DNA of 64,000 nt from NCBI RefSeq assembly GCF_016097555.1, contig NW_024532411.1, positions 186,001 to 250,000 on the forward strand, written 5' to 3'. The DNA is from Gigantopelta aegis (Eukaryota; Mollusca; Gastropoda; Neomphalida; Peltospiridae). A program made the translations under genes and the position numbers. Shown one piece after another: positions 5,369 to 42,223 of this stretch; positions within the stretch are counted from its first letter, which is position 1; the number at the start of each line of letters is the position of its first letter. A model generated the notes under the pieces. The model worked only from the letters and a program-made list of their open reading frames with translations. It did not search any database and was not told the DNA's origin.

Positions 5369-8237
5369 TTATTTGCTGGAGTATTCTTTCAAGACAGCTC
5401 TCAAAACTCCTACAGCAAAACGAACATCTTCCTCAGTGACACACATTGGAGGTTTAATACGCAAAGTCTAGCAATGAAATATACCAGTATTAGGTACTTT
5501 ATTGATAAAGATCTAACATACAGTGCCATAAAGTCCACCTTTACCAATAAGAACACCATGGTTCTTGCAGTTCTCCCATATCTCTGTTACTTCAGCAGCT
5601 GGAAGAGGTTCTTTAGTTTCCTGTATAGAGATAAAGGATGCACAAATGAATGGATAGATAGTTAGAAATGGAAGGATGACGGTCATTTCCGACCTTGTTC
5701 TTTACTAACTCCAGTCCGATCATTAGTCCTTTTCCTCGGATATCACCAACAACTTCAAACTCATCTCGTAACTTCATCAACTCACTAAGGAGCAAAGTAC
5801 CAACATGATTACAATTTGCCTGCAGTTTCTCTTCATCAATAACCTAATTATAATAATTATTAAAATTAAATATAATGAATTATATTAATTATTACTTACA
5901 TCTAATACAGCTGAACCAATTGCACAAGCCATAGGATTACCGCCAAATGTATTAAAATGCAATGCTTGAGTCATACTCTGAGCAATAGCTATAATAATTA
6001 TTAGTTAATAAAGTCAATTGTTAATCTATTGATTACCGGGGTAGTAACCACGGCAGCCATAGGAAAACCATTACCAATACCTTTAGCCATTGTCACTGCA
6101 AGAAAGAAAGAAAAAAAAGAGAAAAAAATTAAAAAATGAGAAGAAGAAAGTGAATTAAATAAGCAAAATAAACAATAGATAGACAAATGGATGGATGGAC
6201 AGACTGATAAATGAACAGACCTATATCTGGTACAACATCTTGTGTTTCAAATCCCCAATAGTGTGTACCTAGTCGACCAAAACCACATTGAACCTAGTAC
6301 AAAAAGTACCTAAATTATCAATTGTTTCCATTATTGGATCAATTTCAAACAACAACATTAATGTAGTCAAGGTAAGAAGTTAAAATCCACTGACACTATG
6401 AGATCCTACCTCATCAGAGATACACACTCCGCCCCTCTCTCTGATAAGTTCATAAGCTCGCTTCAAAAATCCTTTAGGTAAATGAACAGCTCCACCTACT
6501 CCCTGTAAAAAATGGAGGACTATTATTAAGCAATAATTAGGTTGCATGTAGTACATATGATAATATATTATAATACCTGTATTGTTTCAGCTAAGAATCC
6601 TGCCACTTTCTTTGGACAACAATGTTTCAAAAGATCTTCTAGCTGGTCAGCATACATCAAAGATGCTTCACATTGTCCTGGATAGACAACATAAGTATGT
6701 GCCGACAATTCAAGACTATAAATAGGATACCTTTAGCACAATTGCAAGGACGCTGAGTCTGAGCAATACTGTCTCGACAATTGGCTCCCCCCCAAGGGCC
6801 ACGAAAGACATCTGGGTTGATACTCTATATCATAATTTACTGATGTTGATAGTGGTAATGCCAATGAGTGGTTTAACTCACAGCATGGATACCGAGGTGA
6901 CGATGTAATGGATACTTCCATGTACCAATATTTGTCATCTCCATAGCAAATGGAGAACCTCCATGATAACTATTTCTATAAAAGATTATTCAACCAAATG
7001 ATGGATGGCTTGTGCAAATTAGAGATGGATGGATGGATAGATGAATAGACAGATTCAACAGTAGATTAAATGGATGGATGAATGAAATGATAGATTGATA
7101 AAGAGGCTATACTGACCTTAGCGTTACAATATCATGAGCACCAGTATGTAATTTGGCCATAATAACAGCTAAATCATTAGCCTCAGATCCACTGTTAGTG
7201 AAATAAACAACCTAGTATGGGTATGAGGAGAGCGGTATAGGTATGAGACTTAGTATTGAGTACCTTAAGATCTCCGGGTAATTTTGATGTGAGCTGTTCA
7301 GCAAATTCATGTATTGTGGGATGGAGATATATATTAGTGGTGTGCCATAATGTCTCTAATTGTCTCTGGGCTACTTCCACCAGCTTACTTTAAAAAGAAT
7401 TAAAAATTATAAGTATGAAATATCTCTGTTCATTTGTCTGTCATCTGTCTGTCATTCATTTATCTATATAGACTATCTGTCCATCTGTCTGTCTGTCATT
7501 CATCTATCTTTATACACATCAATCTGTTATCCATCCATCCATTCATTCATTACTAACGGGTGACAATGTCCTACGCTAACAGTCACAATTCCAGCAAACA
7601 AATCAAGATATCGTTTACCAGTATGATCAAAGAGCCATTGTTTATAACCCTATTATGAGTATATACATTAAAGATACTATATTTAGCTTAATTGATGCTA
7701 TTATTACATCATTAAGGTTACTATATTTAGAATTACTTGATGTATAAGAACTGGTTTAGTATAATATGTTAATAAAGCTGGAGTGAGGTGCTTTTTTCTA
7801 ATAGCAAGAGTATCGTCATAAGACCGACCCTGTATTGATGGATAAATAAAATGATAAATTAATTGAATGGATAGATAAATAAAATAATGGACAATAACAT
7901 GGATGTACTGATGGATGAATACATAATAGAAGGTTGAACAATGGATCAATGGTTGGTACTAAATGGATTTACTTTTGGTGTTAAATAGATTTTTTATATT
8001 TCCTTACTGTGTATTGTTTAGGTATAAAGTCGCAATGAGGCATGGAAGGGAGAGAGATGTCATTCTCCAGTGCAGATGGTGAGACTAGCAAACAGTATAA
8101 TTTTTAAGTGTATTAAGAGTTAACGGCTTACCCACTGGAGTTGTGGAAGACCATTTGCTACATGCTATGATGCTATTCCATTTGAAAATGCGTCCCTTTG
8201 TTTTTGAGAAGGAAGACAGTAGACCTTTGATTGCCAT
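5369..8237 (-). CDS. AGXT2: Alanine-glyoxylate aminotransferase 2-like, mitochondrial
   Basis: PLP-dependent class III aminotransferase. AGXT2 transfers an amino group from alanine (or other donors) to glyoxylate in mitochondria. Multi-exon. Exon 1 (8132-8237) encodes a basic, Ser-rich, acid-free leader starting [20 protein letters not shown], a good mitochondrial presequence. Exon 2 (8008-8084) ends in [11 protein letters not shown], matching the start of the mature AGXT2 region. Then come [20 protein letters not shown] (about 7760-7830), the [23 protein letters not shown] region with the PLP-contacting Asp (about 6235-6500), and [18 protein letters not shown] (about 6035-6095) with the Schiff-base Lys. 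The C-terminus (last exon, to 5369) reads [19 protein letters not shown]. Full length is near the usual ~500 residues. The start was chosen because exon 1 splices in phase 1 into exon 2. Divergent from ENTR1 with a shared promoter. Confidence 0.9.
7015..7095. repeat. (ATGG)n-type microsatellite in AGXT2 intron
   Basis: Imperfect GATGGATGGATAGATGAAT-like tract. Related tracts lie at 6185-6205 and 7840-7925 in other introns of the same gene. Confidence 0.85.
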
Positions 8238-8286: not shown

Positions 8287-11200
8287 ATGGCTGATGAGAA
8301 TGAAGAGAGTGTCAATCCTTTCTCATTTAAAGCGTTTGTGAGCAAAAGAGAACATGGAAAAGATGACAGCAAGAAAAAAGATGGCCCTAAGAAAAAGAAA
8401 AGTACCACCAGTAAAGCTGGAAAATCTGTTACTGATAGCGACACTACTCCATTCCCAGAGGTAGCCTCAGGAGGTGATTGAAGCTCTCTACGTAACTATA
8501 ATATGTATATCATAGGATAGGTCACATGATTAAATGGATAATGGAATGTGTAGATACATGTACATATACACTAGATTGTTGTAATGGGTATACTCACCCA
8601 CTCTCTTAAATGTGTTTACAATCTCATTACCACATTACATATGTACATGTAATTATTAAGTACTAATAGACATGTACATGTACACATAGCTAGTATTTGG
8701 TGTACCATGACAATTTCCCTTGCATACTTATTCTGCAATGAGGAAGCTGTGCTGTCCTCAATGCAGAGGACATGTTGAATAGCACACTAGAGTACTAGTA
8801 TGGGACTAGAACAAGTGTCAAGTATATCTTTAGTCAGAGTGTTCTTTTTATAAGAGGTTTAACATGTCTTTAGATAATCCTTTCTCGTTAAAAATTTTGT
8901 GAAGACAAAATCAAAGACTCAACAAGAACATAGCCATCATAAAGATTCTAACAGCTCATTTAGTAGTGACGAGGGGGAGAATGTCCCCTTACCACCACCA
9001 ACATTACTAGACCCTCTACCACAACTTCCACAATCACTTCCTGTATCAGACCCTATAACTCAAGACTTATTTTCTAGTGACAGTGACAATGAGTTATCGG
9101 ACCCCTTAAAAGGGGGTCTACCCCAACCTGTTCCCATATTAATATCAGACCCCTTGACTGAACCCACAGTGGAAATTAAAAATAGTGATGAAAGTGATGA
9201 AGAAGGCAGTCCCTTTGAAATGAATCCATTTCCAAATGTTGCAGTATTGGCACCTGATGAATCACAACACCAGCTGTTGAGTGAATTGAAGAAGGTGGAT
9301 TGATAAATGAATTGATGGACGAATGGATGGATTGATGGACGAATGGATGAATTGATGGATGAATGGATGGATTGATGGACGAATTGATGGATTGATGGAT
9401 GAATGGATACATTGTAATAGGTAAAGACAGAAAATGAAATGTTAAAAAAAAAATTAAGCAATTATGAAGAAGAGTTAAAAATAGAAAGGAACAAGTATGT
9501 TAATATCACTTACCCAAAACAATTGTTTATTTTCCATTGGTCTGTCTGTCTGTCTGTCATTATCACTAATAGATCCAGTTTGCTAAAGGAAGAGATGAAA
9601 GTTTTAAAAGAAAAGGAAGACAAGGAGACAAAAGCTTTAGAAAATTTAGTGCAAAAAGTAGAGAAGAACTTAGAAACAGCAACAGTCAGTACAATATAAA
9701 ATGTATTAACTTTAATATTCTTATAGCAAAGAGCAGCAGCTGCTGAAACAACCATTGCAAAATTAAAATCAGAGATACAAACTTTGCAGGTTAGATGACT
9801 TAAGTGTGAGACACATATCTAATAGTGTATTGAGGTAGTTTTTAAAAAAGAAAACCATTCGTTGAAATTGAACAAGTATTAAATTTGATTAAAAGCTTAA
9901 ACTCTCTATAATTGAGGACACTTGTTCAAGTCCCATACTAATACTTTAGTGTATTATACAACCTCTATATTGAGGACACTTGTTCTAGTCCCATACTAAT
10001 ACTTTAGTGTATTATACAACCTCTATATTGAGGACACTTGTTCTAGTCCCATACTAATACTTTAGTGTATTATACAACCTCTATATTGAGGACACTTGTT
10101 CTAGTCCCATACTAATACTTTAGTGTATTATACAACCTCTATATTGAGGACACTTGTTCTAGTCCCATACTAATACTTTAGTGTATTATACAACCTCTAT
10201 ATTGAGGACACTTGTTCTAGTCCCATACTAATACTTTAGTGTATTATACAACCTCTATAATTGAGGGACACTTGTTCTAGTCCCATACTAATACTTTAGT
10301 GTATTATACAACCTCTATATTGAGGACACTTGTTCTAGTCCCATACTAATACTTTAGTGTATTATACAACCTCTATATTGAGGACACTTGTTCTAGTCCC
10401 ATACTAATACTTTAGTGTATTATACAACCTCTATATTGAGGACACTTGTTCTAGTCCCATACTAATACTTTAGTGTATTATACAACCTCTATATTGAGGA
10501 CACTTGTTCTAGTCCCATACTAATACTTTAGTGTATTATACAACCTCTATATTGAGGACACTTGTTCTAGTCCCATACTAATACTTTAGTGTATTATACA
10601 ACCTCTATAATTGAGGACACTTGTTCTAGTCCCATACTAATACTTTAGTGTATTATACAACCTCTATATTGAGGACACTTGTTCTAGTCCCATACTAATA
10701 CTTTAGTGTATTATACAACCTCTATAATTGAGGACACTTGTTCTAGTCCCATACTAATACTTTAGTGTATTATACAACCTCTATATTGAGGACACTTGTT
10801 CTAGTCCCATACTACTACTTTAGTGTATTATACAACCTCTATATTGAGGACACCTCTATGCTAAGGACAATTTTCAAGTTTACATAAGCCCTCATTATAG
10901 AGAAGTTTCATTGTTTGTTTTTAATAAAAAGTAAGACAGAGGTTTTCAATGCATGACCATGTTATGACACATTGTTTTCCCATTGGTAAAGGTGTTGATC
11001 AAATTGGTTTAGTTCTTGAAAATAATTAAGGTGATGATAACTCATCAGTTTACGATATATTACGTTGTGAATTTAGAAAACAATTATTATTATTAAAAAA
11101 ATTGTTAACAACTTCTGAAGAATTGTTAAATAACAAGTACCTTTCATCTATCCATCATATATCCATCTGTTCATTCATTTATCTGCTCATAGATGCAATT

Positions 11201-11534: not shown

Positions 11535-11754
11535 AAGAGGAAGTTCTTTTTTAATTATAACTAATTTTTTGTATGTTTCATAATTTTTGCAAGTTATTAC
11601 ATTATTAAAAGTTATTACGTTATTAAAGTTATTAAAGTTATTACATTATTAAAAGTTATCAATAATTGTATTATAATTATTTTTACAAAATTAATCAAAA
11701 AAAATGAAAAAAAATTAACATTATTTTAGTTTGGATGTTTTATTTAGTTAGTTT

Positions 11755-12769
11755 TTAATGATTAGGGTTTAGTGTCTCCTTAATACAATACACATTATCT
11801 AGTGTGAACTGAAGGAGCTCATGTAACTCATACATGTTATAATATTGATCAGAGAATGATGTACAATTGGAACAACGCGCAGGTTTGGTCTATGGAGGGA
11901 GGGAGAGAGAGAGAGAGTTTCAACTTAAGCCACAGAGTACAAAATGGTACATGTACTGTTAAAGTTAATTTTTTTAAAGCACAAGAAACTTACAGAGTCA
12001 TATTGTCCAGGTGCAATAAGACCAGATGCATCATCACCAGATGAATCACTAAACTGCAGATGTGAGATAATATAGGAGAAAGTGTACAGTTATCACTTAC
12101 TGTATTTTGAAGAGAGTTGATTACAACTTTTACCTTCTCTTTACAAGAATTAAAATATAATAGCAATAAAATGTCACTGTTATTAATACTGTTCTCATAA
12201 TTGATAACATTTAACAATACTGGCCACATCTCCTGAAGATGATCTAGATCTTTACGAAGATGCTGCAAAGCAGAAGTAAGTTCCTGCAAAATAGACATGT
12301 TTATAGCATAACATAGATAATGAATAGTTTGCGTAATAGAAATACAAACTAAGGATTTCAAATTACACCAACAATCCATCACTGTTTGCAACATTATTAA
12401 CAAGAATAAGAAAAAAAATTCTACTTACATTAATTTTACAATTGTCATGAGGTTTCAACACACAATTAACAAGTGGAACCTTGGTGTAATATTGCCGCCA
12501 AATCTTAGGGTCAACTGCATCATGAAAAAAATCACAATATTACTAGCTGTGCAATAATATTTGCATACACTCACTATTCTATCTTTAACATTCAGACAAG
12601 AATCTCTAGCATGAACAACTTTGTCATAGAGCTGAAGGGCTTCATTGAATGTTAACAGTGATGGCTCTGGATCAACAATACTAACAGGGTCGAGTGGAAT
12701 GATAAAAATTGGACTGGCTATAGAGTAGTTGAAGCACAAGATGGCCACAACAAAGAAGGTATATTCCAT
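11755..12769 (-). CDS. Small secreted four-helix cytokine-like protein, unknown family
   Basis: Five exons with canonical splice sites: 12575-12769, 12429-12514, 12101-12283, 11994-12053 and 11755-11889; about 219 residues. The N-terminus MEYTFFVVAILCFNYSIASP is a clear signal peptide. The mature part has four amphipathic, helix-prone segments: FNEALQLYDKVVHARDSCLN; ELTSALQHLRKDLDHLQEMW; DILLLLYFNSCKEKVKVVIN; and YELHELLQFTLDNVYCIKET. Several cysteines and two N-glycosylation sequons (NNS, NCT) are present. Three of four introns are phase 0 and fall between predicted helices, as is typical of animal class I helical cytokine genes. The first junction is off by one base (exon 2 is 86 nt); a lost base beside its acceptor would make it phase 0 too. 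I recognise no homologue by sequence. It might instead be an unrelated helical secreted protein. It lies tail-to-tail with ENTR1, 220 bp apart. Confidence 0.6.
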
Positions 12770-20701: not shown

Positions 20702-23700
20702 ATTTGGCATATAGTCTATCAAACTAGCTCATTACATATAATAGCTACCTCTGGTGATGGTCTAACTGATGTTTCTTCTGCATTTGGTAAAGTTCTAGCT
20801 GGTGTAAACATATTCGGTTTCTCATCACTAGTATTTGGAGACTCTGACTTAACAGCTGTTGTCTAGGGGAAGAGAGTGTGTATATATTTTATATAAATTA
20901 CAACACAGGCATTTACTGGTTCTGATGTTGAAGCTTCAGCATCAAGAAACAAACATTTCAATTTAGAATCCATGAGTTTCTTTTTATCAGCATTTTTCAT
21001 CTATCAAAACAATAAAAACATTTAAATAAGGTCACAGCTAATAGATGGAGTCTCTTACAGCAACATCTAAATCGTCAGCATTAAAACCATCATCAACACA
21101 CATTGACTGGACCATAAACTTGTGTTTGGTACGTTCTGCTACAGCCACTTCATCCATTGGCTGTAACATAACTGTGTATAAGAAGTAAGGCAACTTAAGT
21201 AACTTGTTTATAGTAATTAAGTATTCCTTAGTGATTCATTAATGACAAAGTGTATAAATATTCATTGTGCATGTATTATAAGTACATGTACTTAGGAGAG
21301 AGCAATTGACATTCCTTCCAACTAAAATAAAGGTACAAAGTCTGATCTACAATGGACAAGGATAATTCCTAGCTCAATTCTCTCTACATAATGTCTGAGG
21401 TGACTTTAGAAACTGTCCTTAGCATAGAGGTGTCCTCAATATAGAGGTTGTATAATACACTAAAGTATTAGTGTGGGATTAGAACAAGTGTCCTCAATAT
21501 AGAGGTTGTATAATACACCAAAGTATTAGTATAGGACTAGAACAAGTGTCCTCAATATAGAGGTTGTATAATAAACTAAAGTATTAGTATGGGACTAGAA
21601 CAAGTGTCTTCAATATAGAGGTTGTATAATACACTAAAGTATTAGTGTGGGATTAGAACAAGTGTCCTCAATATAGAGGTTGTATAATACACCAAAGTAT
21701 TAGTATAGGACTAGAACAAGTGTCCTCAATATAGAGGTTGTATAATAAACTAAAGTATTAGTATGGGACTAGAACAAGTGTCCTCAATATAGAGGTTGTA
21801 TAATACACTAAAGTATTAGTATGGGACTAGAACAAGTGTCCTCAATATAGAGGTTGTATAATACACTAAAGTATTAGTATGGGACTAGAACAAGTGTCCT
21901 CAATATAGAGGTTGTATAATAAACTAAAGTATTAGTATGGGATTGGAACAAGTGTCCTCAATATAGAGGTTGTATAATACACTAAAGTATTAGTATGGGA
22001 CTAGAACAAGTGTCCTCAATATAGAGGTTGTATAATACACTAAAGTATTAGTATGGGACTAGAACAAGTGTCCTCAATATAGAGGTTGTATAATACACTA
22101 AAGTATTAGTATAGGACTAGCAACAAGTGTTCCAAGGTGCCACTATAGTCACTGAAGTACTAATGTAATTTTATTTTCTCAATGATTACAATACATCAAA
22201 GACCTCTCCATATAATACTATGCAACCACTCTCTACAATAACTTAGTTATAACCACACATATCAAATTACTACTATTAATACTGTTCTCCTAACACATCA
22301 GTGACGAATAATTAGATACTGTACTATAATATTATAAACACAAGTCACACATACAAGATGATGTGGCTATATAGAAGAACAGGAATTTAATCTAAGGTAA
22401 TTATTACAATGTAATGTATTTAAGTTACTAGGTGCCTATAGCATCACTTAGGTATTAGCAGATATAGTATAGGCCATACTACCTATAGTAATGACACACC
22501 CCCTACATATGTAACTCAATACATTTCATTCATACCATTCTCAAAATTAGAAAAAGGGAATGTAATAGGAACACAATTTGATAGACTCTCATTTTATCAA
22601 AACGAGTGGTTTTTTTAGTTAGAATGCTTTCTCCATTATTGAATTTGTGATTTTAGAAGCATAACATTTGAGATTTCAAACACTTGTACTAAACTGCCTT
22701 GTAATTGATATTAATTGCAGGGGCATCCTTGTTACCTGATACTTCTTGTTCTCCATGAGGTGCAATGACTCCACTATTAGGTCTGACACAATATTGTTTA
22801 GGAGCTGTTGTCTTCACTTTAAACCCCACCCTTTCATTCGACGGGTTACGAAGTGTAAGTTTAGTTGTTACGACCTCTGTGAATGGACCTAAAAATCACA
22901 AAATAGAAGGTAACCCTTTAATTTGTCAGAAAATTAAAGTTATTATATAATTTCTGTACATAGGAATGTCAGCGTCATTACTTTTAATAATAATTAAACA
23001 GAGGGACTCCCTCATAGCAACAATGCTGTGTACATAGGAATGTCAGCGTCATTACTTTTAATAATAATTAACTAGAGGGACTTCCTCATAGCAACAACGG
23101 TGCGTAATTAACACATTAAGTTGTTAATAATAGCATAATGGTAGAAAGCAAACTTGTCTTATTGTTAGATCCTAATCAACACATTAACACATTTAATATT
23201 TAATTTTATTTAATTTATATGAACAAAGTGTATAGGAATAATAATTAACAGACAATATGCAATAGATTCATCATCATTTCTATGTTAAATAAAATTGTAA
23301 TTTTGTATTAAAATTATGAATTATTATCTAATGTCGTAAAAACAACATTGAAATTATTAATGGAATAATATATACTATGAACAAGGTTTTCTCTCTCTCT
23401 CTTTCTCTCTCTCTGGTATGGTAACCGTGACATCATAATGACAATGTACACTAACTTGTTGTTCATTAAAATACAATTCCAATGCTTATCCTGAAATAAA
23501 ACCTATCTATTCTACTATCCTAGCAACATAATGATAGCTAAGACTATGTACATTCATCTTGCTTGTTTATTTTAATAGGGACAATTATTAATCAGCCAAT
23601 GACAGTCAATCATCTAACTCTTGACACGTTAGAAGAGAGACAAACACTACAGCTGTAATACTAATAGTTAGGTCATATCCTCAGTATGGAGATGTACTCT

Positions 23701-28000: not shown

Positions 28001-31000
28001 AGATTGTGTTTTTCTCTCCATTCTCCTGAAGAAGCTCACAATGCTATTGAATGTCTTCTCTCACATGAGAGCTATCAGAGTATACAACAGCAGTTATCTA
28101 ATGTTAGAGACTTCATTTTTGTTAAAAGGGTCAGTCAGCACATTGTATACAGATTGTATTGAATACAAATAAATATATAGTACTACACATATGATGGTAA
28201 TATGGTCTATTGTTATTTATATAATAGTGAAATTGAAACTATTTTCTAGATCTTGTTTGTTAACTGAGCATTGACATATATAGACTCTCTCTCTCTCCCT
28301 CTCTCTCTCTCTCTCTAGATACTTCTAGCTCAGTCTAATCCTTCCTTACATAAACAAATTCCACTAACTTCATCTTCATCTTCCTATACTAGTCATCGTA
28401 ACGTCTCCAATGTTCCTCATTTGCCACTTCCCTTCATTAAATCTCAATTAATAACCACTACATTTGATAATGGTGTCCTAGACACTTCCACGTGGTTACA
28501 ACCACACTTAGAAAATGATCTACAATTAGACAATAGGAACATTTCACAGGTTCTACCAAAAATTGATTGTACAGTGTTTAATTTTCCAGACTCACTATCA
28601 TCTAACGGTCCAATATCTAAAAAAGATTCTAACAAGAATTTAATTATAGGGGTTTCCCCTTATGATCCAGCTATGTGGAGATTGGGTGAGAGAGGTTGGT
28701 ATCGATTGGAGCAGCTGTGTTGGAATGGTTGTACCGAGATAGAACGTCAACCTGCTGTCCTTTATATGGACAAAGATACTGATAATACTAGAATTCCACT
28801 TTGTCCCGTGAAAGGTATATTGTCTTATTGATCTATTGTTTGTCTGCATCTCCATTCATCCATCCATCCATCTATATATGTATTCATTTATCTATTAATT
28901 AAAGTTTAATTTATTTATTTAACCCTCTGTCCACAGAGCCTATTAAAGTGGGTGTGGTTTTAAAAAATCCACTTGCAATTCCTCTTGCTATGAGAAGAAT
29001 TATTCTTATTTGGCATTTTACACCTTTATCAAATCAAGTGAGGAACAATGTTAAGATAATTAACTTTTTATCATTGACATTATTACATGTACAAGTATAT
29101 GTACATATATATACATGTATATGTATATATATATGTACAAGTATATGTACATGTACATATACATGTACATATACATGTATATGTATATATATATGTACAT
29201 GTATATGTACATATACATGTATATGTTATTTGCTGTGTAATGGTTCCGTATCCTTGTAAGGAATCCAGTGATGATGCTGTAGTGTGTGAAGTCGTGGAGT
29301 CATATGTTTTGCCTGCAAGAAGTCAAGAAAAAGTGAGGCAATAATATAATGATTATAGTGATGTCATTGTTTTTGTATGCAATGTTCAATACATAATGTA
29401 TAATAGTCACACTGGAATAACTAGTTTTAAACTATAGCCATCCCATCGCTTATAATATATTGAGCCTATGTTTAGACTATGAGATCCTGTATATATTCTT
29501 GCACTTTAATGCACTAATTTTGTTTATTTTTATCTCTTTAGCTAAATCTATGGATTGTTCCTGTCAAAACTGGTTCGCTTACTATTACTGGATTAGCTTA
29601 TAATCTATGTGTAATGGATGGTGAGCAAGACTCACTTACTTTGCCACTTTTCAATGATATACTCAAACAAGATGAGTTCTATGATAGTGGGGATTCTCTT
29701 GTCACTCAAGGGTTCCAGGGAAGAATAGATTTTCGATGTCAGGGTCGGAGAAGGAATGAAACTAAGACTGATAGGATGGGTGTGGTTTATGGAGAGGACA
29801 ATAGACTTTGTTGGCGAGTCATTGATCCCATGCCAAGAGCCATTGTAAGTACATGTATATATAAGATTGTATCCATTTTGAATTTCTATCTGTCCATTCT
29901 TCAAATGTACATCTATTATCAATCCATTTTTCTCCTTTATCTACATTACATGCATCCATACTTCATTTTCATCCATCCATTTTCCTCTATGTACATACAT
30001 TCTTCCTTTTATTTGTCCATTCATTCTTTTTTTAGATGATTATTCAAGGTTTTTATCAACCTTTATTAGCAGGAGAAATAATATCTTTGATAATAAAAAT
30101 TATCAACTGTAGTTCAGAGGCTATCACTAACTTGAAACTATCTACCTCATTACAACATTGTACTTTACTGAAACAGGTATATGATGAGCAAACTGGACTT
30201 TGGAAATCATCATTGTTATATAAATGTGTCTTTATGTTTGAATATTAATGTGGGACTAGAACAAGTGTCCTCAATATAGAGGTTGTATAATACACTAAAG
30301 TATTAGTATGGGACTAGAACAAGTGTCCTCAATATAGAGGTTGTATAATAAACTAAAGTATTAGTATGGGACTAGAACAAGTGTCCTCAATATAGAGGTT
30401 GTATAATACACTAAAGTATTAGTATGGGACTAGAACAAGTGTCCTCAATATAGAGGTTGTATAATACACTAAAGTATTAGTATGGGACTAGAACAAGTGT
30501 CTTCAATATAGAGGTTGTATAATACACTAAAGTATTAGTATAGGACTAGAACAAGTGTCCTCAATATAGAAGTTGTATAATACACTAAAGGATTAGTATG
30601 GGACTAGAACAAGTGTCCTCAATATAGAGGTTGTATAATACACTAAAGTATTAGTATGGGACTAGAACAAGTGTCCTTAATATAGAGGTTGTATAATACA
30701 CTAAAGTATTAATATGGGACTAGAACAAGTGTCCTCAGTATAGAGGTTGTCATTTATTCAGAGTGTCTTTCATGAGATATTTCATTCTAGTATCATATAC
30801 ATAAACACATGTTTATATATACTACATACATATAAACATGTATGTAGTACATATTAATTACATGTAAACATGTAGATCATGTAGATAATGTATATCTAAC
30901 ATGATATTTCATTACTAGACATCATCACTAATGGACTCTGGTGTCTTCTCTACCTCTGATGATACACAAGAGTTGGCCTTCTCTTCTGTCCCTCTTCCTT

Positions 31001-38185: not shown

Positions 38186-39694
38186 TTTAAAGTCAATGTT
38201 TAGGTTTTTAATAAGAAGTATACGGATTTTTGAAGTATACAGAAGTATACGGAAACATTCTGAAATTTCTATAGAAATATAATGCAAGGAAATTAAATAT
38301 AGTTCCGTATACTTTCCTACTAAAAATATACAATAAATTTTTTAGTCAATTAAAAGGTCACTAAAGAGTAGATTTCCACACCAATTAAGTAAATTATTTA
38401 AGTATAAAAAAATATTTCAGACAATTGACAGATGAGGTATTAAATAAGTTTATTAAACAAAATTTAGAAGATTATATTACAATATAAGAATGAAATTCAA
38501 TTAATTAAAAACTATATTTTCTAAAATATTGTGCACTTAAAAAATATAATTAGATGAAGTCATTGAATTAAATCAGTTTTAAAATGAAGTTTATTAAACA
38601 AAGAAAATTACAATAAATATTGACAAATTAAAATATAAGAATGAAATTCAATTAATTTATTTTATAAACTACAATTGACAAAACAAATCTAAAAAAAATT
38701 AAAAAAATAAGAAAATGTAAAAGAAAAAATGCTTCAGAACTCTAGTCCAGAAAGAGTTCCCAAAGAGTCCATCCAGTCCAGAAAGAGTCAAAGAGATTTC
38801 CCAGAGTCCATCCAGTCCAGAAAGGGAGAGTCCAGCAGAGAGGTCCAGGTCCACAAGTTGAGAACATAGAGAAAGAAAAAGAAGGAGATGTAAACAAACT
38901 GCATCACTAAAAAGAAGATGGATGAATAGATGTAGAATGAAAAGACAGCTCACCTTTTTCAACAGGGATGGTCCTGCAGGGAAAAAAAGAAAAGGTAAAT
39001 AAACTGAACTGGTTACAAAAATGTATGGATGGATGGAGAGATGGAGGAAGAAGAAGTGAAAAAGGACCACAACTACACAACACACACAGCACACACACAC
39101 ACGCACCCTACATACCCTCTCCCCCACCCCGGGGGGGTAAAGAAAGGGGGGTTGGTGGGGGGGAGAGGGATTTGTAGGGTTTTATGTGTATGTATGTGTG
39201 GTGTATATAGGCTAGATAGCCCAAAAAAAATTGAAAAAAAAAATTAAAAGAGAAGGAAAGAAGGCTTGAAGGAAGACAGGAGAGAATCCATCCAAGATGG
39301 AGAGCGACTCATCTTTTCCATCGATGGAGAACATCGGTCCAAGTAAAAGGTTCCAGGAGATCCATCAAAGAAAACCAGTTCAAGTAAGAGCTTCCAGAAG
39401 ATTCAGTAAAGAACATCAGTCCAGAACATCAGTCCAAGTAAAAGGTTCCAGGAGATCCATCAAAGAAAACCAGCCAGTTCAAGTAAGAGCTTCCAGAAGA
39501 TTCAGTAAAGAACATCAATCCAGAACATCACTGAGAGAACCATCAGTCCAAGTAGAAGTTCTGTAGAGAAAAGGAAGAGACTTGAAAATTTTTTTTTTAA
39601 AAATGATGATTACAAAAGTAGCAAAAAATAACATAACAAAAGAGATGAAAAAATAAAGATGAGTAAACTGAAAAATAACATGATTGTCCAAAGC

Positions 39695-39838
39695 GGTGAT
39701 CCAACGATGAGATGCGATGTCCAACGATGAGACGCGGTGATCCAACGATGAGATGCGATGTCCAACGATGAGACGCGGTGATCCAACGATGAGACGCGAT
39801 GTCCAACGATGAGACGCGGTGATCCAACGATGAGAGGT
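39695..39838 (-). repeat. Alternating 20/21-bp minisatellite (left arm)
   Basis: Alternates TCCAACGATGAGACGCGGTGA and TCCAACGATGAGATGCGATG-type units, about 7 in all. The mirror copy is at 40318-40458 in the right arm. The long His/Arg/Trp/Ser open frames in both arms come from this repeat. Confidence 0.9.
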
Positions 39839-40317: not shown

Positions 40318-40458
40318 TCTCATCGTTGGATCACCGCGTCTCATCGTTGGACATCGCGTCTCATCGTTGGATCACCGCGTCTCATCGTTGGACATCGCAT
40401 CTCATCGTTGGATCACCGCGTCTCATCGTGGACATCGCATCTCATCGTTGGATCACCC
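40318..40458 (+). repeat. Alternating 20/21-bp minisatellite (right arm)
   Basis: Reverse complement of 39695-39838: TCTCATCGTTGGATCACCGC alternating with TCTCATCGTTGGACATCGCG. One unit differs by a single-base deletion from its left-arm partner. Confidence 0.9.
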
Positions 40459-42223
40459 GCTTTGGACAATCATGTTATTTTCAGTTTACTCATCTTTATT
40501 TTTTCATCTCTTTTGTTATGTTATTTTTGCTACTTTTGTAATCATCATTTTAAAAAAAAAAAATTTTCAAGTCTCTTCCTTTTCTCTACAGAAATTCTAC
40601 TTGGACTGATGGTTCTCTCAGTGATGTTTCTGGATTGATGTTCTTTACTGAATCTTCTGGAAGCTCTTACTTGAACTGGCTGGTTTTCTTTGATGGATCT
40701 CCTGGAACCTTTTACTTGGACTGATGTTCTGGACTGATGTTCTTTACTGAATCTTCTGGAAGCTCTTACTTGAACTGGTTTTCTTTGATGGATCTCCTGG
40801 AACCTTTTACTTGGACCGATGTTCTTCCATCGATGGAAAAGATGAGTCGCTCTCCATCTTGGATGGATTCTCTCCTGTCTTCCTTCAAGCCTTCTTCCTT
40901 CTCTTTTTAATTTTTTTTTCAATTTTTTTTGGGCTATCTAGCCTATATACACACACACATACATACACATAAAACCCTACAAAATCCCTCTCCCCCCCAC
41001 CAACCCCCCTTTCTTACCCCCCCGGTGTGGGGGAGAGGGTATGTAGGGTGCGTGTGTGTGTGTGCTGTGTGTGTGTGTAGGTTGGTGGTCCTTTTTCACT
41101 CTTCATTTCCTCCATCTCTCCATCCATCCATACATTTTTGTAACAGTTCAGTTATTTTACCTTTTCTTTTTTTCCCTGCAGGACCATCCCTGTTGAAAAA
41201 GGTGAGCTGTCTTTTCATTCTACATCTATTCATCCATCTTCTTTTAGTGATGCAGTTTGTTTACATCTCCTTCTTTTCTTTCTCTATGTTCTCAACTTGT
41301 GGACCTGGACCTCTCTGCTGGACTCTCCCTTTCTGGACTGGATGGACTCTGGGAAATCTCTTTGACTCTTTCTGGACTGGATGGACTCTTTGGGAACTCT
41401 TTCTGGACTAGAGTTTCTGAAGCATTTTTTCTTTTACATTTTCTTATTTTTTTAATTTTTTTTAGATTTGTTTTGTCAATTGTAGTTTATAAAATAAATT
41501 AATTGAATTTCATTCTTATATTTTAATTTGTCAATATTTATTGTAATTTCTTTGTTTAATAAACTTCATTTTAAAACTGATTTAATTCAATGACTTCATC
41601 TAATTATATTTTTAAGTGCACAATATTTTGAGAAAATATAGTTTTTAATTAATTGAATTTCATTCTTATATTGTAATATAATAATTTCTAAATTTTGTTT
41701 AATAAACTTATTTAATACCTCATCTGTCAATTGTCTGAAATATTTTTTTATACTTAAATAATTTACTTAATTGGGTGGAAATCTTACTCTTTAGTGACCT
41801 TTTAATTGACTAAAAAATTTATTGTATATTTTTAGTAGGAAAGTATACTGGAAACTATATTTAATTTCCTTGCATTATATTTTTCTATAGAAATTTCAGA
41901 ATGTTTCCGTATATTCTGTATACTTCAAAAATCCGTATACTTCTTATTAAAAACCTAAACATTGACTTTAAAACTCTTCTCTCTTCAGAGCAGCTCTGAC
42001 TTGATCATGTAAACGTTGTAAAGTTTTACTGCAAGTTTTACGATCTATATAAGAACTTTATTAATAAAATATAGTGCTTGTTATTAAAACCTTTAATTCA
42101 ATAATAAGGGCCTGAGCTCGTTGGAGTTTGTTTCCATTAATAGCAGCCTATAATGATATGATTAGTTTATATAATATACAAACATTATTGTGGTGTACCA
42201 TTATCAGAGTCATATCAAATATT

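Follow-up and report, generated by a model that had tools for sequence, protein, structure and literature searches.

The 64,000-nucleotide window analysed here is part of a 280,929-base contig (C255) from an assembly of 1.15 Gb in which the largest contig seen reaches 120.6 Mb. Its minus strand carries a small gene of five exons (Table 1), already proposed in the preliminary description, and this gene looks real. The exons join into 215 codons through canonical splice sites (donors GTGAGT, GTAAGT, GTAAGT and GTAAGT; acceptors CAG, CAG and TAG for introns 2 to 4). When GTRAGT donors and CAG, TAG or AAG acceptors were allowed over a region of 1150 nt, the longest spliced ORF had 216 codons, against a mean of 52 and a maximum of 160 in 1000 dinucleotide shuffles, none of which reached 200. 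This 216-codon path retains intron 3, the five-exon path being one codon shorter. By longest spliced ORF, the region ranks second among 220 equally long segments taken from both strands. Summed over the exons, a codon score that had been trained on 13 stretches taken as coding gives 2.5 for the proposed frame and -17.1 or lower for the others of the six frames; for exons taken singly, the proposed frame scores highest in only three of the five.

Table 1. Features of the five-exon gene (positions are those of the window)
Feature	Position	Strand	Description
Spliced gene	12769 (ATG) to 11757-11755 (TAA)	minus	Five exons, canonical splice sites
TATAAA	12857..12862	minus	93 nt upstream of the ATG; sequence match only
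Exon 1, phase-0 version, 195 nt	12575..12769	minus	Predicted signal peptide, about residues 1-18 (hydrophobic), and predicted helix A, 41-64
Intron 1, phase-0 version, 71 nt	12504..12574	minus	GTGAGT...CCTAAG
Intron 1, rival phase-1 version	12570-12515	minus	GTGTAT...CAG
Exon 2, 75 nt	12429..12503	minus	Putative A-B loop, two cysteines; rival version starts at 12514
Intron 2, phase 0, 145 nt	12284..12428	minus	GTAAGT...TTGCAG
Exon 3, 183 nt	12101..12283	minus	Predicted helices B and C with a short turn, one cysteine, sequon N124
Intron 3, phase 0, 47 nt	12054..12100	minus	GTAAGT...CTGCAG
Exon 4, 60 nt	11994..12053	minus	Ser/Gly/Asp-rich; putative C-D loop, judged from composition
Intron 4, phase 0, 104 nt	11890..11993	minus	GTAAGT...CCATAG
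Exon 5, 135 nt with stop	11755..11889	minus	Three cysteines, sequon N179, putative helix D, about 183-211
AATAAA polyadenylation-type signal	11739..11744	minus	Directly after the stop codon; recognised by its motif alone

The first junction can be read in two ways. The GTGAGT donor at 12574 and the CAG acceptor at 12515 are mutually out of frame, which is why the preliminary description had supposed that a base is missing at 12514/12515 and that phase 0 depends on restoring it. This correction is needless since two in-frame junctions are available in the sequence as it stands. The donor at 12574 joined to an AAG acceptor (CCTAAG, exon 2 from 12503) gives a protein of 215 amino acids and restores phase 0 unaided, so that the three phase-0 introns described earlier (introns 2 to 4) become four. 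Alternatively, a GTGTAT donor at 12570 joined to the CAG acceptor gives 220 amino acids with intron 1 in phase 1. The length of about 219 residues first proposed is thus replaced by 215 (phase-0 form) or 220 (rival junction). The donor at 12570 is conceivable because an Arf gene on another contig of the assembly, C676, shows donors such as GTATAA and GTAACC, read by eye at frame breaks. As the frame of that gene also breaks once inside an exon, an assembly indel may be present at the first junction of the gene studied here. If half of introns are in phase 0, four phase-0 introns would be expected in about 1 gene in 16; taken alone they are weak evidence.

The N-terminus of the protein is hydrophobic, with a helix predicted at residues 2-18. 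Single exons were modelled with AF2; folds made in this way, with no alignment, may be biased towards helices and lend weak support. They place helices at residues 2-18 and 41-64 of exon 1 (mean pLDDT 56.5, helix A being of low confidence) and at residues 2-29 and 35-59 of exon 3 (mean pLDDT 82.1), where they form a helical hairpin. The helical character of exon 3 is therefore supported by the models, that of exon 1 weakly so, and that of exon 5 is presumed. The protein would then begin with the signal peptide and helix A; one loop would lead to the B-C helix pair and a second loop to helix D, with introns located between helices. The preliminary description had the introns splitting the predicted helices, but none is cut. 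It had also described all four helical segments as amphipathic. This holds for helix B, whose hydrophobic moment is reached by 28 of 2000 shuffles, and not for helices A, C and D, where the moment is within chance (664, 561 and 436 of 2000 shuffles, respectively). The several cysteines and two sequons noted earlier are present: there are eight cysteines, seven of which follow the predicted signal peptide (an odd number for the mature protein), and sequons at N124 and N179 in the mature part, a third one lying within the signal peptide. A Foldseek search with the exon 3 hairpin returned 41 matches at E<=10. None of them reaches E<=0.001 or is a cytokine; they are mainly bacterial WXG100-type proteins and other hairpins.

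Searches for relatives point to an orphan. Among 11 matches in the assembly at E<=10, five are the exons of the gene itself and the other six have E values of 0.28 to 8.2. No tandem paralogue was found in the window by DNA comparison, and at the protein level the matches listed elsewhere in the window do not exceed chance, the best (E 0.076) being interrupted by stops. Collections of viral contigs (exon 3 query) and of prokaryote genomes (220-aa query), neither of them of animals, yielded 29 and 54 pattern matches respectively, with none confirmed. NCBIfam gave no match. Pfam matches to Osw5, LysC, tRNA_bind_3 and Nup54_57_C (E 0.016-0.48) were taken as chance.

The preliminary description had proposed homology to class I helical cytokines from architecture, while reporting no sequence match. 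The Pfam and PDB sequence searches, followed up to E 10, indeed list no cytokine; this is a weak test, as cytokine sequences change rapidly in evolution and low-scoring matches are removed by the filters. The class I receptor domain PF09067 has no match in the assembly, and the control genomes gave none either, which makes this search uninformative. What stands is the predicted gene plan, which fits that of helical cytokines and in which all introns can be in phase 0. Five-exon helical cytokines are not known from sponges, the kind of organism supposed in the preliminary description.

This exon-helix plan is, in our analysis, the best argument for the cytokine reading. In the IL-4 gene, according to the excerpt of PMC4905449 considered here, introns lie between helices and exon 3 encodes a helix-turn-helix. 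The same excerpt allows a comparison with IL-4/IL-13, where signal peptide and helix A are in exon 1, the A-B loop in exon 2 and helices B and C in exon 3, followed by the C-D loop and finally helix D, as predicted here. However, the coding region of IL-4/13 genes is spread over four exons with three introns there, whereas the present gene has its putative C-D loop in a separate exon, and the present protein is longer (215 amino acids against 142-153 in the salmonid IL-4/13 genes of that excerpt). Genes of the IL10 family, IL3, IL21 and IFNL1 are described in the relevant part of PMC2654155 as having five exons, introns that divide helices and no split codon, a plan shared by the phase-0 version of our gene, but no sequence similarity to them was found and exon 4 here is loop-like. 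Teleost type I interferon genes are likewise given four phase-0 introns in a passage of PMC4929537.

The age of such ligands is not agreed. The preliminary description takes class I helical cytokines to be bilaterian or vertebrate, but PMC6797617 places the four-helix bundle and its ligands already in the ancestors of Cnidaria; the same paper reports the class I receptor CRLF3 from cnidarians onward and as missing from Porifera. Extracts of two other papers state that reports of IL-6-family cytokines come from vertebrates only, JAK and STAT being already present in Porifera (PMC13203501), and that common gamma-chain cytokines are restricted to jawed vertebrates, with IL-6 and IL-17 mentioned in invertebrates (PMC9465101). 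If the organism were a sponge, a helical ligand in it would be relevant to the order in which ligand and receptor arose. Shared ancestry with the helical cytokines of vertebrates is possible but unproven. It is very unlikely that the gene encodes a true helical cytokine of an early-branching animal, derived from a five-exon, phase-0 ancestor common to IL-10, IL-3, IL-21 and interferon-lambda, whose sequence diverged while the exon-helix plan was kept.

A less specific reading makes the gene an orphan, single-copy in appearance, that probably encodes a secreted helical protein. As a tentative proposal, close to an even chance in our estimate, this would be a mature four-helix protein of about 197 residues acting as an extracellular helical ligand, the most likely reading among several. 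The protein would leave the cell by means of its putative signal peptide. Four long helices, A-B and C-D being joined by long loops and B-C by a short turn, could pack into a compact helical bundle, probably braced by disulfides, and outside the cell the bundle might bind a surface partner as helical ligands do. This proposal is favoured because the spliced frame is far above chance and its summed codon score is the highest of the six frames, because the N-terminus is hydrophobic, exon 3 is predicted as a hairpin and the exon-helix plan is cytokine-like, and because seven cysteines and two sequons lie beyond the signal peptide in a protein that shows no paralogue in the assembly. It is weakened by the ambiguous first junction, the low confidence of helix A, the odd number of mature cysteines, the chance-level amphipathicity of helices A, C and D, the lack of cytokines among the Foldseek matches and a weak Arf-like stretch. 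Small and readily testable, the gene is for now an orphan whose exon plan is suggestive.

The Arf-like stretch is the strongest family hint among the sequence matches, and a relation to Arf is best treated as a minor hypothesis. The Pfam profile Arf (PF00025) matches residues 63-142 of the phase-0 form over 80 profile positions (E 0.0018, 18.2 bits) and residues 70-147 of the 220-aa form (E 0.0062, 16.5 bits), both scores falling below the curated cut-off of 22.3 bits. Arf chains make up most PDB sequence matches. They account for 8 of 12 when the phase-0 form is the query (lowest E 0.09), for 7 of 8 when it is the 220-aa form (lowest E 0.31) and for 7 of 11 when it is exons 2-4, where the top match is nevertheless a ribonucleotide reductase; exon 3 alone recovers no Arf in Pfam. 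Local alignment of residues 62-142 with five Arf-family proteins of the assembly gave z values of 4.64, 6.04, 5.41 and 3.37 for four of them but 0.88 for the fifth, while the N-terminal flank was no better than shuffles against the same five and the C-terminal flank showed a weak signal for one (27 of 1000 shuffles). These values might reflect a highly derived Arf protein, in which exons 2-3 would derive from the latter half of an Arf GTPase and the signal-peptide exon would replace the nucleotide-binding half. Intron positions were compared closely for two Arf-family genes of the assembly. In the Arf-like gene L018, an exon seems to begin before RPLWRHYY, two residues from the aligned position of intron 1, which would agree with such an origin, whereas the compact-intron Arf gene on C676 (L032) has its very short introns at other places, with none near intron 1. 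Arf proteins bind GTP through the P-loop, DxxG and NKxD motifs. The translation contains no GK[ST] and no DxxG before residue 150; a single DSSG at 154-157 is distant from the Arf DxxG place, and the alignments have NVIN or NYEN at the NKxD position. Moreover, Arf has a strand in the region aligned to exon 3, where two long helices are predicted here. With the nucleotide-binding motifs missing, a signal-peptide exon in front and the sub-cut-off score, a derived Arf protein is rather improbable. The assembly also holds three intronless Arf genes, open across the whole profile, on chromosome-size contigs (L010-L012).

Two other explanations compete with the extracellular ligand. The protein could be a secreted helical orphan with a role outside signalling, in the matrix, adhesion or defence, its cytokine-like plan being a coincidence among many orphan genes. 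Genes with all introns in phase 0 are not rare, and both the lack of cytokines among the Pfam and PDB sequence matches and the lack of assembly paralogues are consistent with such a role, as would be the reported absence of CRLF3 from Porifera (PMC6797617) if the organism were a sponge. The predicted succession of helix A, the B-C pair and helix D, separated by loops and with introns between helices, is nevertheless a close fit to the cytokine plan, and we regard a non-signalling orphan as somewhat unlikely, although a serious competitor. The gene model itself might also be wrong or decayed: the exons may belong to another transcript, an assembly indel may affect the first junction, or the gene may be a pseudogene damaged at that point. 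The out-of-frame donor and acceptor of intron 1 and the frame break in the C676 Arf gene, which suggests that indels may occur on such contigs, argue for this. Against it, the first junction has two in-frame alternatives, and the remaining junctions, the TATAAA and AATAAA motifs and the open frames are intact; a faulty model is the least probable of the explanations considered.

The contig itself shows signs of a distinct origin. Arrays of a 58-base satellite are found in the window at 9904-10853, 21430-22130 and 30243-30750. In the assembly this satellite has at least 121 matches on at least 15 contigs, C255 and fourteen others numbered 598 to 2899, these counts being lower bounds as 40 of 76 candidates were scored. 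The three satellite contigs whose size was seen measure 280,929, 196,425 and 145,873 bases. Among the candidates scored, no match lies on C1-C15, nor on C676 (177,812 bases). This distribution of the satellite, together with the small introns of the present gene and of the C676 Arf gene, suggests that the likely source of C255 is a second, compact-intron organism within the assembly, to which we infer that C676 also belongs. Alternatively, satellites may simply gather on unplaced contigs.

Several other features were observed in the window. One piece is TRAPPC9-like; it has no Pfam match, and the assembly search found only the window copy. An exon of a class III aminotransferase lies on the minus strand at 5616-5843 (PF00202, E 7e-9). 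On the plus strand, EGF and laminin-G-like exons at 237-872 and 1278-2150 probably belong to an extracellular protein. Finally, the segment 39270-41400 is an inverted duplication, in which the repeat arrays at 39328-39835 recur reverse-complemented at about 40318-40826 with mirrored ORFs.
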